Virus record (IMG/VR): IMGVR_UViG_3300044712_001036
Coordinates: 1 to 41,505 of that record
DNA from: a virus
Length of the DNA stretch: 41,505 nucleotides
Reading direction: 5' to 3' (one strand)
Shown: positions 2,594-41,505 of the stretch, one piece after another
Layout of the letters: each line of letters starts with the position of its first letter
Numbering within the stretch: position 1 is the stretch's first letter
Program-made: the position numbers and the translations under genes
The notes under the pieces: model-generated
What the model was told of the DNA's origin: nothing
Seen by the model: the letters and a program-made list of their open reading frames with translations, nothing else
Database searches by the model: none

Positions 2594-3607
2594 ATGAGCA
2601 GTATCTACGAGAAACGAGGGTGGTGGTATTACCAGTGGAGGGAAGGCGGAGATACCAAAGTCCGGGCCCTTCGCACACAGAATAAAACCTTGGCCGAGCA
2701 GGTTCAGAAACAATGGGACGCAAAGCGGGAACTGTTCGCCCACGGGATCACGCCTCAGAAGATCGACTTCCAGACGGCGATCGAGAAATTCCTCCTTCAC
2801 AAGGCAACGCAGCTGAAGGAGCGGTCCCGCCTGTTATACGTCAGCCAGCTCCGGACCCTTCACGCCGGCCTGGGGGTGAAACACGTTGGGGAAATTTCCT
2901 CAGACAAGGTATCGGCGTTCGTTGCAGCCAGGCAAAAGGCAGGGGTCACCAACAAAACAATCACCGATGAGCTGATCCTTCTCCGAGGATTATTCAAGTA
3001 TCTGCTGAAGGAGGGTCTGATCAAGGAGGTTCCCGTCAGATCCTGGCCGACGCTAAAGATTTTCACGAAGGACCCGGAGCGGATCGGATTCTATACCCAG
3101 GAAGAGATCAAACAGTTGAAATGGTATTTCCATGGGCATCCGTTCCAGGGCCCGTTTCTTTTCACGCTTTACACCGGCGTCCGACGATCAGAGATACGCC
3201 TCGCCCGCCGGCGAGACATTAACCTGGACAAGAACCTGGTCGGGTGTCGATCGGTAAAAACCGAGGGCCACGGGGAGCAGATCCGATATATCCCGATGCA
3301 CCCGGAGCTGAGAAAACTCCTGTCCGCCTATGCTGGAAAGGGAAAACCGGATGACTTCCTCTTCCCGGAACTGTTCGATCACTCGCGGAACTGGCCGCAT
3401 GAGTGCATGAAAGAAGCCTGCAAAAAATTGGAGATCACCTATCGCAGGTTCCACGGACTGAGGCATACCGTTGCAACGTTCCTTCTCGATTCCGGGATGA
3501 GCCTCAGAGACCTCATGGAGATCATGGGCTGGACCACGCTGGAGACCGCACAGAAATACATCCACTTCGCCCGGGCCGCGGGAAAGAAAATGACCCTCCC
3601 GTATTGA
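2594..3607 (+). CDS. int: Tyrosine integrase
   Basis: The 337-residue protein is a site-specific tyrosine recombinase. An N-terminal arm-binding-like segment (SIYEKRGWWYYQW) is followed by a SAM-like core-binding domain (about 57-150) and the catalytic domain (about 165-330). Catalytic residues are visible: Arg197 in TGVRRSEI, Lys222, His287 and Arg290 in HGLRH, Trp313 in MGWTT, and nucleophile Tyr322 in QKYIHF. It should insert the phage DNA into the host chromosome. The ATG at 2594 follows AAAGGACG. It converges with the end of the late operon, separated by a terminator for the minus strand. Confidence 0.95.
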   Translation: MSSIYEKRGWWYYQWREGGDTKVRALRTQNKTLAEQVQKQWDAKRELFAHGITPQKIDFQTAIEKFLLHKATQLKERSRLLYVSQLRTLHAGLGVKHVGEISSDKVSAFVAARQKAGVTNKTITDELILLRGLFKYLLKEGLIKEVPVRSWPTLKIFTKDPERIGFYTQEEIKQLKWYFHGHPFQGPFLFTLYTGVRRSEIRLARRRDINLDKNLVGCRSVKTEGHGEQIRYIPMHPELRKLLSAYAGKGKPDDFLFPELFDHSRNWPHECMKEACKKLEITYRRFHGLRHTVATFLLDSGMSLRDLMEIMGWTTLETAQKYIHFARAAGKKMTLPY

Positions 3608-3723: not shown

Positions 3724-6700
3724 CTATTTCTTTTTCGACTCCTCATGGAGCTGGTCCAGCTTGTCATAGATCAACGACCCCTGGCGGGCTGTCTCGCTTC
3801 TGAGGATATACATTTTCTGAATCTCGTTCGCCTTTTGTTTGGGGTCCATTTTTTTGTCATCGGTCAGTTGCTGGATCCGTTCGCTGATTTGCCCCAGGGC
3901 TTTGTTGACTTCGGTCAGTTTGGCATATACGCCGGACGCCTGTTTCTGTTTCGCCTCGTCAGCCTGGCCATGCTCGAAATAATACTTCATGGTTTCATAC
4001 TTCCGAGAGGCATCGTTGAACTGATTCCGGAACCGCTTCACCATCTCCGACCGCTGGAACGCAGGATAGGCGAAACCCTTCACGCCTGGAATGTCCTGGT
4101 TCTGGGCTTCCGGTTTGTTGGTTTTCGGGAGAATCCCCAGGGCTTCACCGGCCGCATCGACGGCACCGATACCATGGGCAAACATTCCGCCGCCGAACCC
4201 GCGGCCGTAATTGTCCAGCACGGTCGGAGCAACGCCGATCTTTTTCCCTATGGCCTTCGCGGTCCCAGAGGTTTTCGGTCCGAATTGTAATTCTGGTTCC
4301 AACTTCATCTGATTATCCGGGATCAGATCCTGACCGGTCCACATGGATTTATTGAGGATATGCTCCGCGATCGGCGCCGCGGAAGTCGGGATAACGTTGG
4401 GCATAAACGCCGCCTTCAGGGAATCGCCGAAATCATCGAAAGCGTGTTTGTCTTTGAGGTAGTATTTATTAACGCAGCGCTCGACCAGGCTGGAGAACAG
4501 CAGCCCCAATTCCCGGGGCTTGGGAATCCGATAGACTGAGTTTTTCACCAGGGCGGCCTTCTGGTCCAGGGTGAGTTTATCCCATTCCGCCCGAGTGATC
4601 GACGGCCCGGAAATATGAATCCAGTGGGTGTCTTTCACAATCTGTTCCACGTCCTGATACCGCGGATCATCCTTGTTCGCCATCCACGCGTAAAGGGTGG
4701 GCATCACCAGGTAAGCCATCGCCCGGGCTGTCATCTGCACGGGGTCACGCCGGAAGGAATCCACGGATCCGTTGATGAACTTATCAATACCCTGGACCGC
4801 GGCATTTTGGAAGGCGATCATCCGGTTTAAGTTCTGGGTAACCGCCCCCATCCTGGCGAAATCCAGAGACACATCACGCGAGGCGAGACCCGCCTCCATG
4901 GCACCAGCCTTTCCGGGTTTCTCTTTCTGCAAACCCAGGGTAAATTCTCCGACCCTGGTCACCTGTTCCGAAAACTTTGACATCAGCTCGAGGGTTTTGA
5001 TGGGTGAGGTGATGAGGTTCGTGAACCTGGCCAGCCCCTTGGGATTCTCAAGGACCCGTTGCAATTCACCTTGCAGACCTTCCCGGTTCAACGCCACCAG
5101 CTCAGCACCAGCCCCGCCCGAAGCCATCCATTTCCAGTATGTTTCAGACCGCCGGCCAGTGTTTGAGATCCCATGGAAAACAGCCCGAAGCACATCGACC
5201 ACCGGGACGGCCTGGTATCTCGAGAACAGCGCAGACGAAAGCGTATCCATCACGATATTCCTGGCCGTGAATTCCGGGGTCAGGGTGGCGCCGGCCCGCA
5301 GCCACGCGGCAGGCTTGGCCATCAGCTGAATCCAAAGCGGAGCGGTCTCACGATCCAAAGACTTGAGAACGTTCTCGATCTCCGGATGAACCTGGTAGAG
5401 TTTCTGTTGTCCGCCATCGAATACCGAGATCACGCCCTTCTGGGGAGTGTTCCCCTTCCGGAAAACCATGAACATTTTATCCTGCAGCGACTGAGGCAGA
5501 GCGTTGAAATGGGACAGTTCCGCGGGGGTCATCTGTCTCCGGATCTCATCCAGGGAAAACTGAATCGCCTTCTGTTGGTCAGGAATTTCCGCAACGTATT
5601 TTCCCATCCCGCCGGACTTCCTGGCCAGATTAACCAGGGCCTGGCCAACCGCGTTACGTTCGGCCGCCTGGATGAAAGCGTAGGTGTTCTTGATCACGCT
5701 CTCGAGCGGATCAATAATGTCCCTGGTGGACCCCTTCATTTTCTTGACCGGAGAGTTTTTAACCTCGAACCCTGAGCCGGATCCGGACCCGCCGCCGATC
5801 GTGAGATCACCTTCGCCAGGTTCGCCCATGATCCGATAGAACGGAATATAGTCCTGGTTCTTCGATCGGATCAGAGCCCGGTCCGCAGAGGAAAGGATCC
5901 CGCCATCAACCAGATACTGCATCACCTGGTCCTGGTATTTGTAGAGATCCTGGGCCACGTCCGAGAATTTTCGATCGTTGCCGTTACGATCTTTCCCGAT
6001 CACCTGGTCATCGAAGCGCTTCATTGTCTCGAGCGCATCCTCGATTTTGATTCCGGTATCAACGTCCTTGCCGCGGGGCCCCTGCTGAAAATACTTTTCC
6101 TTCGCCCGCCTGGCCACCAGATACGCCCGCAAATCCATCAGGCGATTCCCGGCCGGCTCGAGGATTTCCCGGAGCCCCTTCCCGGAAAACTTCAGGGTGT
6201 CATAATCAAACGGCTTGTGATCGATAAACGCCGCGGCCTTGCCCATCGCCCCGGAAAACAGGCGGGCGATCTTGTAGGGGCTCAGGTATGCCGGCAGGAG
6301 TTTCCCGCCGTTCATTTCCATTTCCACTTTCCGGAGGGGTTCGAGCCGATCAACCACGGTCTTGTAAAGGTCCCCGAAATTCCCGGACAGCTTCCGGTAT
6401 TTTTCCAAGAGGGTGGGGGCCCCGGGCACGTCGATATTACTGATCACGCGCATCACCGGATCCTGGCGGAAATAGTTCTCGATCTCTCCGCGGATCGTGT
6501 TCATTGCGGTGTTCATTTCCTTGTTTGCAGCCAGGCGCTTCTGGAATTCAACGAGGAATCCGGGAGCCTTCTGAGCGGCCTTGATTGGGTCGGTCAGGTA
6601 ATACCGGGCGAATTCCGCCAGCCCTTCCTGGAGGGTGGGTTTCCCGCCCTTGCCAGGTGAAGAGATCGGAAGCAGTTCCCCGGAGAACGGGGCCAGCGTT

Positions 6701-9648
6701 GCATCATTCCAGCCCATCAGCACGGAGAGATGATGCCCCAATTCGTGGGAGCCGACTTCAATATCCTTGCCGTCACGGAGCCGGATCAGTTGCTCCTTGG
6801 TGTTATATGTTCCCAGGACATTCTGGGGGGCCTTCATTTTCCCCTGGCGGATCGGAAGAAGAGCCTGGAATAACTCCATAATTTTGGAGCGCTTCACGGG
6901 CGCCTTGATGGTGGGGTCAACGGTGTCCTGGGTCATGTCCCGGCGATCGATCCGGCCGGTGGATTGGTCGAAGTTTTGGATGCCGTCAGAGGGTTCAGCG
7001 GACCGGGCAGACCCGGTAGACCCAGCGGGCTCAGCAGAATTCTGAGGCGATACCGGACCATCCTGAAACGCGGCTATTGCCCCATCCTGAGCAGCCGGCG
7101 CGAACCTATCACGCGGATCCGCGTCCACCTTCTCGATGGCATGTTTCAGGAGCAGCGCCTTGTCAGGGGCTTCAGCAGGTCCGAACAGGGTGGGCTGTCT
7201 GGGATCACCAGCCCCGCGAAGCAAATCGTTGTATTCCTTCACCAGGTTCGCAATCTTATTCGGGAACCGTTTATTCTGGTCCAGGAACCGGAGGAACGTT
7301 TTCCCCGCCTCGCTCATGCCGTCCGGGATCAGTTGCCCCTGAGCCAGGTATCCATCAACAGTTTCCTTCTGGCGCCTCAGCTCAGATAGTTTATTCGCAG
7401 CCTCCGAGATTTCCCCGGAGATACCCGCATCGAACAGGGCCCCGTCAGCAATATCCCGGTTGACCTTCGCCGTGTCCGGAGCAGCACGAAGCAGACCGTT
7501 GAGAACATTCTTCACATTCGCGTCCGGATCCTCAGCCAGGGTTCCGACCGCCTTGGGGTCACCATACGCCCAGGCAAACAGAGCATTTTTCACGCGGGCC
7601 AGGCCGGTCTGGGAGATTTCCCCGGTGGGTGTCATGTTCTGGCCCATTTCCTCAGCGCTCGAGGTCCGCCGGAAAAACTCCCGGAAGAATCCAGCGTTGC
7701 CGGCCGTGTTCAGGTTCCCGTCCTCAGAGACATTCAACGCCCCCAGGATTTCCGGGACCGCGCCGGCGTCCTTCATGGCCTGTTCCGTTGCCGACATGGC
7801 CAGCTGGCTCCGCTGGTTCGCCTGGTCAGCAAACGCCATACGATCAGCCGGCGACAGTTCGGCCGTCCGTTCCCGGACCAGCATGGGTTTCTTCATTCCC
7901 TGAATTGCAGCAGGATCAAGGCCAAACTTCTGAGCGTTGTCCAGGAGATACTGCCGGTATCCTTCGCCGTTGCCGGCATCGTAGGCCATTCTCAGCCCGA
8001 TGGTTCTACCATTGCCAGACTCGACCAGGCCATCCGGTCCGATCACCGGGGCCCCGTCCGAAGCCTTCACGAAATCCGTAATCAGTTCCTCGGCTCGAGG
8101 GCCCTGAGCAATACTGTTTATCTGATCAACGCTTGCCGCCCTGGTTCTGTCCCGACCCTGGAGAATATCAACCGGATACCCTTCCTGGTTCGATGTCAAC
8201 ACCTGGTCAGCATCGACCACGCGGAACCGGACCGGAACCGCCATACCCTTCGCGGTGACAGCTTTGCTTTCGATCCCGACCTGGCCAGGGAGAGCTTCGG
8301 TCATCACGCCAGCCGGCTGGACAGGCAGCACCGAGGGAGCCGGAGGGGTGAAATCGATCCCCGACATGGGCCCGGGTTTTGCCGGCTCAGCAGGAGCAAC
8401 CGGAGCAGGATCCGCAACAGGTTCAGCCACAGGAGCCAGATCGTTGCCGACAAATTCCGGAAGGTTTGCAACGAACGACTTCGCCGCATCCGCCGGCATG
8501 GCAGGAACACCAGCCAGGCGATCACGCGCCGCCATACCTTCAGACATTCCGCCATGAGCCCCGAGAGCCAGACCTTGAAATGCAGCCGGCGCACCACCTT
8601 CAACCAGGGCCTTCACGGGATCAATCTCTTGTGTCGGATCAACCGACTTCACAGCCGCCTGGGTCATCAGATCCGCAGCGGTCCCGGTGGCGCCCATCTT
8701 CGCAGCCTCGCGGGCCGCACCTTCAACGGTCATTCCGGCAATCTGAGCAATGCGCCCCCAGTTCCCACGCTGAGCCATGCCGGTCAGGATATTCTGAGCC
8801 GCCTCTTGAGAAGCGCCCCCGCCCATGATCCGCTGCAACGCACCAGACCAGAGCAGAGCCTCAGCAGAGCCAGCAACCAGGGACGTTGCCGGGGAAAACT
8901 GTCCGGTTTTTTGCTCAATCAAATCGCTGGTTTTCGTCACCGATCCGGGAGCCATCACCAGGGCAGGGCCGGCCACCTCAGCCAGCTTTTCCGCAGCCCC
9001 GAGAGCTTTCATTCCGCCCGTTGCCGCGCCCATCATGGCCAGGTCCGGGGCCATCTCGACAGCCGCATCAGTTCCCTGAAGGACATTCATCGGCAACGAG
9101 TCAACGCCGATCCCGGTATCACTCACGGAAGGAGTCCCCGGGGGCAGAGCTATATCAATCGCTTGCTGATCAATCGCCGCCGCCTGGTCCAGAGCCTGGC
9201 CAGACTTTTCCCAATCCTGATTCCCGGTCAACCCCCCATACGTCCGCTCGAGGAATCCGCCCACCTTCTTCACCAGGGGCAGGGTTTTCAGGGCGCCGCG
9301 TTGAATTGCATTGACCCCATACTCGAGAACGTTCGAGGGACCAGGATCGACCAGGAGGGCCCGCTCAGGATTCTCAAAATCCAGGCCGAAATTCCCAGAG
9401 GGCTGGTTGTCCGCCTCATTCTGAGCAGCCCGGAAATTCTTGGCCGTTGCCATGTTCCGATCGATCTCGGAATGGCCGCCGACCAGCTGAGTTTTTTCCT
9501 CCGGGTTCAGGGCGTCCCAATCGTTATACGCCCCGCGCATGGTCTGGTCCAGCACGTCGGGGTTTTCCGGGAGCAGGCGGACGAATTCATCTTGTTCGTC
9601 CGGAGTCAGATCGGGGTGAACAGCGGCAACGATTTTCTTCAGACTCAC
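3724..9648 (-). CDS. Giant polyvalent ejection protein (ParB-like, zincin, LPD38)
   Basis: The 1974-residue protein is the last gene of the late operon, where short-tailed phages keep the large internal protein ejected with the DNA. Visible parts: Ala/Gly-rich hydrophobic segments (about 200-370); a Pro/Ala linker (405-445); a DdrB-like ParB-superfamily domain (about 465-640, with SGNGRTIGL at 544-552 and an LVRER strand); a metallopeptidase motif HELGH at 968-972 with downstream EGLAE (Glu1008, Glu1012) as a third ligand candidate; a Gly/Ser linker near 1286-1293; an LPD38-like region (about 1435-1680); and a Lys/Gln-rich helical tail. Polyvalent proteins are thought to enter the host with the genome and counter defences or prepare the cell. 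The start is GTG at 9648 behind AGGGGG, since no ATG has a better site. Confidence 0.8.
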   Translation of the reverse strand: MSLKKIVAAVHPDLTPDEQDEFVRLLPENPDVLDQTMRGAYNDWDALNPEEKTQLVGGHSEIDRNMATAKNFRAAQNEADNQPSGNFGLDFENPERALLVDPGPSNVLEYGVNAIQRGALKTLPLVKKVGGFLERTYGGLTGNQDWEKSGQALDQAAAIDQQAIDIALPPGTPSVSDTGIGVDSLPMNVLQGTDAAVEMAPDLAMMGAATGGMKALGAAEKLAEVAGPALVMAPGSVTKTSDLIEQKTGQFSPATSLVAGSAEALLWSGALQRIMGGGASQEAAQNILTGMAQRGNWGRIAQIAGMTVEGAAREAAKMGATGTAADLMTQAAVKSVDPTQEIDPVKALVEGGAPAAFQGLALGAHGGMSEGMAARDRLAGVPAMPADAAKSFVANLPEFVGNDLAPVAEPVADPAPVAPAEPAKPGPMSGIDFTPPAPSVLPVQPAGVMTEALPGQVGIESKAVTAKGMAVPVRFRVVDADQVLTSNQEGYPVDILQGRDRTRAASVDQINSIAQGPRAEELITDFVKASDGAPVIGPDGLVESGNGRTIGLRMAYDAGNGEGYRQYLLDNAQKFGLDPAAIQGMKKPMLVRERTAELSPADRMAFADQANQRSQLAMSATEQAMKDAGAVPEILGALNVSEDGNLNTAGNAGFFREFFRRTSSAEEMGQNMTPTGEISQTGLARVKNALFAWAYGDPKAVGTLAEDPDANVKNVLNGLLRAAPDTAKVNRDIADGALFDAGISGEISEAANKLSELRRQKETVDGYLAQGQLIPDGMSEAGKTFLRFLDQNKRFPNKIANLVKEYNDLLRGAGDPRQPTLFGPAEAPDKALLLKHAIEKVDADPRDRFAPAAQDGAIAAFQDGPVSPQNSAEPAGSTGSARSAEPSDGIQNFDQSTGRIDRRDMTQDTVDPTIKAPVKRSKIMELFQALLPIRQGKMKAPQNVLGTYNTKEQLIRLRDGKDIEVGSHELGHHLSVLMGWNDATLAPFSGELLPISSPGKGGKPTLQEGLAEFARYYLTDPIKAAQKAPGFLVEFQKRLAANKEMNTAMNTIRGEIENYFRQDPVMRVISNIDVPGAPTLLEKYRKLSGNFGDLYKTVVDRLEPLRKVEMEMNGGKLLPAYLSPYKIARLFSGAMGKAAAFIDHKPFDYDTLKFSGKGLREILEPAGNRLMDLRAYLVARRAKEKYFQQGPRGKDVDTGIKIEDALETMKRFDDQVIGKDRNGNDRKFSDVAQDLYKYQDQVMQYLVDGGILSSADRALIRSKNQDYIPFYRIMGEPGEGDLTIGGGSGSGSGFEVKNSPVKKMKGSTRDIIDPLESVIKNTYAFIQAAERNAVGQALVNLARKSGGMGKYVAEIPDQQKAIQFSLDEIRRQMTPAELSHFNALPQSLQDKMFMVFRKGNTPQKGVISVFDGGQQKLYQVHPEIENVLKSLDRETAPLWIQLMAKPAAWLRAGATLTPEFTARNIVMDTLSSALFSRYQAVPVVDVLRAVFHGISNTGRRSETYWKWMASGGAGAELVALNREGLQGELQRVLENPKGLARFTNLITSPIKTLELMSKFSEQVTRVGEFTLGLQKEKPGKAGAMEAGLASRDVSLDFARMGAVTQNLNRMIAFQNAAVQGIDKFINGSVDSFRRDPVQMTARAMAYLVMPTLYAWMANKDDPRYQDVEQIVKDTHWIHISGPSITRAEWDKLTLDQKAALVKNSVYRIPKPRELGLLFSSLVERCVNKYYLKDKHAFDDFGDSLKAAFMPNVIPTSAAPIAEHILNKSMWTGQDLIPDNQMKLEPELQFGPKTSGTAKAIGKKIGVAPTVLDNYGRGFGGGMFAHGIGAVDAAGEALGILPKTNKPEAQNQDIPGVKGFAYPAFQRSEMVKRFRNQFNDASRKYETMKYYFEHGQADEAKQKQASGVYAKLTEVNKALGQISERIQQLTDDKKMDPKQKANEIQKMYILRSETARQGSLIYDKLDQLHEESKKK

Positions 9649-33990: not shown

Positions 33991-35158
33991 TGGAAACCTC
34001 CATAGACATAATGGCCCGTCCAATCAATTCAACGACCTGAGGAACTACCGAGTTCCCCGCAGCTTTGAGAGCGTTTCTGTTGGCAAATCGCACCAGTCTT
34101 GTGGATACCCCATCAGTTGCAGCACCCACCGAGAATTCAGAGAGCCGCGGGGCTTCCCATTGGTGTTGTTGCTCTCCGGGCCTGGAAGGCCACGCATTAC
34201 GGCCCCCGGAACCGTATCCCGCGTCATTTGGGATGGAGGAAAAGTGTCGTTCTTGCCATCCTGAGCCGCCGGGGTTGGCCAGCTCGACGCCGCAGCCGTG
34301 ATTAGATTCACCCCGCCCGAGTTCCGCGCCGACTTGGTTTCCTTTGTTTCCGGACCGCGTTCCCCGTCGCACTTGTTCGGTGTCGGCCATTGCCTCGCCT
34401 GAACCGTTATCGAATCCCCGGACGTTGTTCCCTTCTCTCGGCCGTCCGATGCCTTGGGGGTCAACCAATTCTCTCGAACCTGTTGCCCCAGGGTTTCCGT
34501 GAATTCCGGGGAAGAATACCCGTCCACCTTGTTGGCTCTCGGAGTCTGTCATCTGGCCATTGCCGGAAGTCCGTTCCTCGGATCGTTCGATATTTCCCCA
34601 CGCTTCTCCGCATCGTTCGCCCGGGCAGTTGGCCACAATCCAGGCTCTGTCTCTTTTGTGCGGAGCCCCGACCGCCCAAGCACCCACCACGGACGCCCAG
34701 ACGGAGTAGCCGGATTCTTCCAGGTCAGCAATAACCCGGTCAGCCCCTCTAGTTCGGAGAGCAGGAACATTCTCAGCCACAACCCACCGGGGTCTAATTT
34801 CTCGGACAAGTCGGAGCATTTCAAACCAGAGACCGGACCTTGTTCCCTCTTTAATTCCAGCCCCTTTCCCGGCAACGGAAATGTCTTGGCAGGGAAACCC
34901 TCCGGCAATAACATCGATGGATCTTCCGGGGCCGACAACCCCATCCATTCTGAGAATGTAAGATGACAAAAGTTTAACGTCGTCATAAATCTTTACCCCC
35001 GGAAAGTTTTTGGCAAGGACGGCTCGCGGGAACGGCTCTATCTCACAAAATGCGGCCGTTGTCATTCCGGATCTATGCAGACCCAGAGAGATGCCGCCAA
35101 TCCCTGAGAACAGGTCAAGGACGCGCAGTCTTTTTACCCCATGATTGTCTTGAGACAT
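33983..35158 (-). CDS. DNA cytosine-C5 methyltransferase
   Basis: The 391-residue protein has motif I DLFSGIGG (15-22), motif IV GGFPCQDIS with catalytic Cys90, motif VI ENV (129-131), motif VIII HKRDRAW (167-173) and motif X GNSVVPQ (about 369-375). It methylates cytosine C5 in DNA, probably to protect phage DNA from host restriction. No restriction enzyme is adjacent, so it is an orphan methyltransferase. Between motifs VIII and X, the target-recognition region is built of repeated units starting (V/L/M)-(A/V/T)-(D/N) that are also open in another frame (see 34045-34986). It starts inside the end of the VRR-NUC gene and ends inside the primase start. Confidence 0.93.
   Translation of the reverse strand: MSQDNHGVKRLRVLDLFSGIGGISLGLHRSGMTTAAFCEIEPFPRAVLAKNFPGVKIYDDVKLLSSYILRMDGVVGPGRSIDVIAGGFPCQDISVAGKGAGIKEGTRSGLWFEMLRLVREIRPRWVVAENVPALRTRGADRVIADLEESGYSVWASVVGAWAVGAPHKRDRAWIVANCPGERCGEAWGNIERSEERTSGNGQMTDSESQQGGRVFFPGIHGNPGATGSRELVDPQGIGRPREGNNVRGFDNGSGEAMADTEQVRRGTRSGNKGNQVGAELGRGESNHGCGVELANPGGSGWQERHFSSIPNDAGYGSGGRNAWPSRPGEQQHQWEAPRLSEFSVGAATDGVSTRLVRFANRNALKAAGNSVVPQVVELIGRAIMSMEVSNG
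34045..34986 (-). other. Conserved-looking second reading frame inside the methyltransferase gene
   Basis: Within the methyltransferase gene, on the same strand but another frame, lies an open reading frame from ATG 34986 to 34045. It is broken once by a TGA at 34551-34549. It reads like a phage protein family I recall: FPAKTF, a GLKCSDLSEKLDP segment, and repeated WPTP-type units (at 34635, 34551 where the stop replaces Trp, 34467, 34389 and 34281), then LNSRWVLQLMGYPQDWCDL. In this frame units share W-x-T-[P/A]-x-[A/K]-x-D-G. Whether it is translated is unknown. Confidence 0.55.
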
Positions 35159-41403: not shown

Positions 41404-41487
41404 GGTTTCCTCCTCATTCACTCGCCGGAGCCGGAGCCGGAGCCGGAGCCGTAGCCGTAGCCGGAGCCGGAGCCGGAGCCGTAGCCG
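41372..41487. repeat. Second copy of the terminal direct repeat
   Basis: Identical to bases 1-116. Beyond 41487 the hexamer order differs from the copy at 117 onward, which points to variation or collapse of the array rather than a simple end repeat. Confidence 0.9.
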
Positions 41488-41505
41488 GAGCCGGAGCCGT
41501 AGCCG
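41418..41505 (-). CDS. Partial second copy of the Gly-Tyr/Gly-Ser repeat gene
   Basis: The minus strand holds the stop (41420-41418), the closing Glu, and about 13 Gly-Ser/Gly-Tyr units before the window ends. Counted back from the stop, the first nine Gly-X units equal those of 47-301, then two Tyr units are replaced by Ser. The gene is cut by the window edge. Confidence 0.8.
   Translation of the reverse strand, partial: GYGSGSGYGSGSGSGYGYGSGSGSGSGE

Follow-up and report, generated by a model that had tools for sequence, protein, structure and literature searches.

Within a 41,505-nucleotide stretch of viral DNA, referred to here as the window, is a locus whose overlapping frames very probably encode the two polypeptides of a single cytosine-C5 methyltransferase: alpha and, nested within its gene, beta. 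Alpha, in frame 0, would supply the catalytic domain (motifs I–VIII) and motif X. Beta, in the +1 frame and with an internal start of its own, would comprise an array of W-P-T-P modules of about 38 residues followed by motif IX, its modules standing where target-recognition domains (TRDs) are found in other C5 enzymes. The two chains are likely to assemble in trans into an active enzyme in which the modules would choose the DNA targets, with alpha between motifs VIII and X reading the beta DNA mostly as a poorly constrained linker. Methylation may allow the phage to escape host restriction.

The window has a temperate phage layout (1192–41421), with a LexA/CI-like repressor (1192–1818), an integrase (2594–3607), and capsid, portal, terminase, primase, helicase and Cas4-like exonuclease genes; VRR-NUC lies immediately upstream of the methyltransferase. 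A very large protein of 1974 aa (3724–9648) matches several PHROGs of unknown function. At both contig ends is a (GCCGGA)n hexamer array (53–284, 38.7 copies; 41424–41505, 13.7 copies), suggesting that a circular or terminally redundant genome was opened inside the array.

Alpha matches the C5 catalytic domain family PF00145, with FPCQDIS and AENVPAL in its sequence; it carries motifs I–VIII and X and is without motif IX in frame 0. Among 229 complete nested relatives, the motif IX pattern is absent from alpha in 227 and motif X is present in 222, and a motif IX-like block is found by strict pattern in 193 of the betas. In the window, motifs IX and X of a C5 enzyme are thus held jointly by two chains and not by one, X being the GNSVVPQ of alpha and the IX-like LNSRWVLQLMGYPQDW belonging to beta.

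The nested frame was first noticed in a preliminary description of this DNA as a second frame running through the methyltransferase gene with a single stop; it is the +1 frame, and the stop is a TGA (34551–34549). That description had FPAKTF lying over the catalytic FPCQDI, as it does in the sequence, placed five repeat units exactly (34635, 34551, 34467, 34389 and 34281), and correctly reported an end motif over methyltransferase sequence (LNSRWVLQLMGYPQDW from 34140, over GAATDGVSTRLV). The WPTP proteins with an LMGFP end and methyltransferase-related annotations that it mentioned correspond to PHROG 1008, whose profile matches beta on either side of the stop (phrog_1008, E=1.8e-7 and 2.3e-15), placing both halves in that family; both frames therefore exist as protein families, as it had proposed, PHROG 1008 being the second. 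Absent from it were the second-frame motif IX, the single-chain fusions and the TGG that relatives have at the stop site.

Table 1. Features of the methyltransferase locus in the window. L numbers are our handles for related loci; identities are for the beta frame unless stated.
Feature	Positions	Strand	Remarks
Alpha, C5-cytosine methyltransferase ORF, 391 aa	33983..35158	(-)	PF00145 E=2.6e-40; phrog_363 E=3.2e-74
GGGGGT, weak ribosome-binding-site candidate	34995..35000	(-)	8 nt upstream of beta ATG
Beta, nested +1-frame ORF, one interruption	34045..34986	(-)	ATG 34986, TAG 34047-34045
Alpha motif IV GGFPCQ, overprinted by frame-2 GGFPAK	34886..34903	(-)	Sequence
Alpha motif VIII region GAPHKRDRAW	34640..34669	(-)	Sequence
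Beta module u0, WPTARANDAEKRG...	34552..34635	(-)	84% to L242, 79% to L123; alpha frame, same bases: 60% (L242), 43% (L123)
In-frame TGA in beta, first codon (W) of u1	34549..34551	(-)	TGG in L147, L148, L149, L173
Beta module u1, stop then QTPRANKVDGYSS...	34468..34551	(-)	65-68% to L147-149, L173; alpha frame: 28-35%
GTG, possible beta re-initiation after the TGA, 160 aa product	34525..34527	(-)	From ORF list; putative
Beta module u2, WLTPKASDG...	34390..34467	(-)	Unit boundary
Beta module u3, WPTPNKCDG...	34282..34389	(-)	44-53% to L181, L168
Beta module u4, WPTPAAQDGKN..PPSQ..RDTVPGAVM + linker	34141..34281	(-)	73-83% to L121, L145, L001-L003; alpha frame: 23-50%
Beta motif IX block, LNSRWVLQLMGYPQDWCDLP	34075..34140	(-)	88% to L008; position of motif IX in single-chain relatives
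Alpha motif X GNSVVPQ, spans beta end	34037..34057	(-)	Sequence

Judged by chance tests and by the distribution of stops, the +1 frame is genuine coding sequence under selection. In 5000 synonymous-codon shuffles that kept the methyltransferase protein and its codons, 6.1 stops were expected in the window's beta region, which has one (P=0.001); W-x-T-[P/A] occurs four times in the window, against a shuffle mean of 0.40 and no shuffle (0/5000) reaching four, and LMG[FY]P arose in 0.36% of shuffles. The longest-ORF test was not significant for the window copy alone (P=0.19), owing to its in-frame stop; over 79 genes (relatives plus the window) it reached P<0.05 for the +1 frame in 74 and for the +2 frame in 1, and a WLMGFP-like motif was present in 57 of them against 0.22 expected. 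Further loci were gathered with either frame as bait. In those that could be classified, which span phages and contigs of bacteria in many phyla, the ORF is nested in +1 in 232 and in +2 in none.

Stop depletion coincides with the nested ORF. In 106 genes, the ratio of observed to expected +1 stops falls to 0.18 over the catalytic overlap and to 0.05 across the modules, but is 1.31 and 1.64 just outside beta; in the +2 frame it is 0.94–1.12, that is, without depletion. A chance open frame was rejected on the synonymous shuffles and the stop depletion. Codon choice upstream of motif X carries the same imprint: in A-[DNHY] of alpha, the alanine codon is GCT in 158 of 159 cases (34 expected, same genes), and the D/N/H/Y codon has T as its third base in 172 of 173 (91 expected, same genes). 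These are the bases needed for the LMG of beta, and the codons were counted unconditionally, that is, without requiring LMG in beta.

Which frame is constrained where was examined in 103 nearest pairs aligned as nucleotides, with differences counted by alpha codon position; full alphas were aligned in place of mixed fragments, which MAFFT misaligned. The proportions at positions 1, 2 and 3, which are not independent between pairs because phage loci share kinship, were.185/.134/.502 before beta,.202/.129/.367 in the catalytic overlap,.312/.171/.229 in the module region from motif VIII to the beta end, and.23/.148/.466 after beta. In the module region the free position is therefore alpha position 1, the wobble base of beta, so that the wobble switches between motifs VIII and IX of the methyltransferase. 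The shift is plain in close pairs, L225/L234 differing at 17, 3 and 3 sites by alpha codon position.

These patterns bear on the reading of the second frame as a by-product of alpha's amino acids and codon bias that was annotated by mistake. Gene callers often choose one frame only, and pipelines differ among close phages, as that reading would have it, but a stop depletion and a wobble switch that do not extend beyond beta, shuffles that single out +1 over +2, modules conserved in L121 despite its broken alpha and the existence of single-chain fusions make it extremely improbable. Selection on the second frame, suggested in the preliminary description, is borne out by the stop depletion, the wobble switch and the shuffles, and its suggestion of overprinting by the depletion and the 232 loci nested in +1. 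The second frame of homologues is not riddled with stops: it is open in relatives, and PHROG 1008 provides the matching proteins.

In C5 methyltransferases the stretch from motif VIII to motif IX holds a variable target-recognition region, and motif IX belongs to the small domain (PMC3404938). Akhila gp60, from a mycobacteriophage, is a single ORF of 483 aa with PF00145 at residues 1–182 and motifs I–VIII, after which come five D-L-L-P-T-P modules, FPEWMMGWPAGW (motif IX) and GNGVCPQQA (motif X); a protein from a Tsukamurella plasmid is laid out likewise. Motif IX was assigned in the fusions by position and consensus, and the PTP modules, [FL]PEWMMGWP.GW and GNGV were read directly in the Akhila and Tsukamurella sequences. 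These two proteins and Daenerys gp70 match PF00145, phrog_363 and phrog_1008 within one ORF. As the fusions match the alpha and beta families, frame 0 corresponds to alpha (I–VIII, X) and the nested frame to beta (modules, IX). We base the argument on the Akhila, Daenerys and Tsukamurella plasmid proteins, because a further fusion, in a MAG (L161), may stem from an indel.

A third arrangement is found in split tandem forms (L089–L092 and L121, including Stasia, Sebastisaurus, phiBT1 and, as L121, Brevibacillus), in which alpha stops after motif VIII and the +1 ORF carries modules, motif IX and motif X; in L121 the modules are conserved though alpha is broken. With few exceptions, one chain of the two carries motif X and the other does not. 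Taken together, the fusion, tandem and nested relatives indicate that one enzyme exists as a single chain, a tandem split and a nested split. On this comparison beta belongs to the same enzyme as alpha, and the window holds the nested-split kind. The preliminary view placing the target-recognition region in the second frame agrees with the single-chain relatives and with beta's being the constrained frame between VIII and IX. Among mycobacteriophages, the single-chain form occurs in Cheoctovirus (L259, L258) and two overlapping ORFs in others (Stasia, Peaches); given this mixture, the split may have been gained or lost on several occasions.

Were beta instead an overprinted accessory protein with another role, such as a regulator or an anti-restriction protein that merely lies within the methyltransferase gene, the lack of a known-domain match to its N-terminal half and of any structure match would be unsurprising. 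We consider this very unlikely: single-chain and tandem forms show the C-terminal half of beta to be the enzyme's missing middle, and alpha is without motif IX in 227 of 229 relatives. An accessory protein unrelated to the enzyme was rejected on the fusions and the missing motif IX of alpha. Searches of solved structures and of Pfam gave no sequence match to beta, and a single-sequence query with the beta half of the window retrieved no relative from viral contigs, though alignment queries did. In AlphaFold models the module region has pLDDT values of 30–55, and the window's beta half (pTM 0.21) has no confident fold; for the L161 single-ORF fusion the catalytic domain is good (HhaI/HaeIII) and the module region is again without a confident fold. 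As AlphaFold left this region unfolded, a TRD-like fold of the modules is putative.

Candidate beta starts have a Shine–Dalgarno core in 34% of cases, against 12.8% at same-frame control starts, and at least one candidate start with such a core is present in 145 of 192 loci. Together with stop depletion from the beta N-terminus, this favours internal initiation over frameshifting. Programmed +1 frameshifting after motif VIII would join the alpha catalytic domain and the beta modules in one chain, matching the part order of split tandem and single-chain relatives, and the two frames do overlap at motif VIII. It is nonetheless very unlikely, as openness and constraint of the beta frame set in some 20 codons ahead of motif IV, well before the junction, and beta starts are equipped with Shine–Dalgarno sequences; the ribosome would also have to shift once more, back to frame 0, to read motif X. 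Of the preliminary description, then, the protein families, selection, overprinting and target-recognition region are supported and the frame switch is not: enriched starts and +1 depletion from the N-terminus are as expected for a separate polypeptide.

The window's own beta is interrupted by the TGA at the first codon of u1 and is otherwise intact. It may be truncated there, read through (the context is TGA-C, a leaky stop context) or re-initiated at GTG 34527, upstream of which inspection of the sequence found no clear Shine–Dalgarno sequence. A consensus error at 34549–34551 is possible, and TGA recoding was rejected because the alpha gene itself ends in TGA. Compatible with the two-chain explanation of the family is decay of this copy, a change of TGG to TGA having inactivated beta and left the enzyme dead. 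To this we give slightly less than an even chance: the TGA stands where L147–L149 and L173 have TGG, but the rest of beta, motif IX and alpha are all intact, a GTG start follows, and the stop is leaky or possibly an error. From sequence, the chances that the window enzyme still works appear about even.

Cutting 244 betas at W-P-T-P-like starts gave 568 modules with a median length of 38 aa and 1–7 per protein. Module families recur in different orders and have 70, 50, 29, 23, 16 and fewer members, some being single-linkage chains that are perhaps mixed. The window has five such units in tandem between motifs VIII and IX, in the manner of a TRD array. Second-frame identity to relatives is 65–84% for u0, u1 and u4 and about 44–53% for u3, and mostly exceeds by a wide margin the alpha-frame identity of those bases; the module comparison found no relative of u2, the other four units having second-frame relatives. 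Kagunavirus coliphages with 92–94% identity across the gene are set apart by whole modules: K1G has one, EP-M-A and EcoPhCCP1 have two, with the extra module on opposite sides, and SCS92 has a different one. Such whole-module differences, which extend to the gene of Bas76, are the behaviour expected of exchangeable target-recognition cassettes. The modules are, to judge by these phages, exchangeable between phages, and we infer that each reads a DNA target.

The small gene of M.EcoHK31I reportedly lies inside the large gene in another frame, and the window shares this nesting, with its nested frame interrupted by TGA. M.EcoHK31I (YGGCCR) and M.AquI are two-polypeptide C5 enzymes (PMC3404938). 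Their chains are reported to assemble, as alpha and beta of the window would. As in the window, the large chain of M.EcoHK31I carries motifs I–VIII and X without IX and the small chain carries motif IX; unlike in the window, where conserved target-region modules are in beta, its predicted TRD is in the large subunit (PMC3404938). The constrained frame between VIII and IX being that of beta, we liken the working of the window enzyme to that of M.EcoHK31I without counting it as a strict member; beta is longer than the M.EcoHK31I small chain and modular, the comparison being one of architecture. M.AquI is likewise split between motifs VIII and IX, but its small chain has IX and X, whereas X of the window is in alpha; L089–L092 and L121 match M.AquI. 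Target-module arrays between VIII and IX are also present in the multispecific methyltransferases of Bacillus phages (SPR, phi3T, rho11, H2; PMC8936443, PMC12707154). These resemble the window in having several target modules there and in belonging to temperate phages, but are single chains in a single frame; the likeness is one of layout, and homology of W-P-T-P modules to their TRDs is only putative.

PHROG 1008 is annotated 'DNA methyltransferase'. It includes the nested ORF annotated in Paenibacillus larvae phages (Fernvirus), 'g55 internal gene', and ORF30 of coliphage K1G, which lies inside the C-specific methylase gene and is labelled a 'putative Mte8-like protein'; these are of the same family as beta and, in the nested-type phages examined, have the same nested position. 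The 'Mte8-like' label, Mte8 presumably being the UniProt mnemonic of EcoHK31I, is only an indirect hint at kinship with M.EcoHK31I. The annotations leave nesting and function unexplained, and some phages, Leyra and Bloom among them, have the methyltransferase label on both frames. In the recent GenBank records of the close coliphages SCS92 (L252, 289–951) and EcoPhCCP1 (L257, 289–1080) only beta is annotated 'methyltransferase' and alpha is omitted; other coliphage records do the reverse. The record of Streptomyces phage phiBT1 (L092, 1781–2831) says 'DNA methylase may be inactive'; its unannotated +1 ORF carries modules, IX and X, so the split enzyme could be active.

Our literature search, which covered few subscription papers, found no description of overprinting in phage methyltransferase genes. 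We lean towards a wider reading in which the window represents a class of C5 enzymes, widespread among phages and bacteria, whose entire target-recognition region is an overprinted, separately translated W-P-T-P cassette subunit, drawn from a shared repertoire and swapped from phage to phage, with the catalytic frame as filler. If so, specificity would evolve by in-phase cassette exchange under two-frame constraint. The two-chain enzyme explains an annotation puzzle in many phage records, in which both frames of one gene are labelled methyltransferase or one is chosen, and provides a long, deeply conserved same-strand phage overprint whose partner is known and whose function is testable. With modules swapped among near-identical coliphages, the idea can be put directly to the test by sequencing methylomes. 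As the target-recognition part lies in an unannotated frame, it may be impossible to predict from the annotated protein which DNA many 'orphan' phage methyltransferases are specific for.
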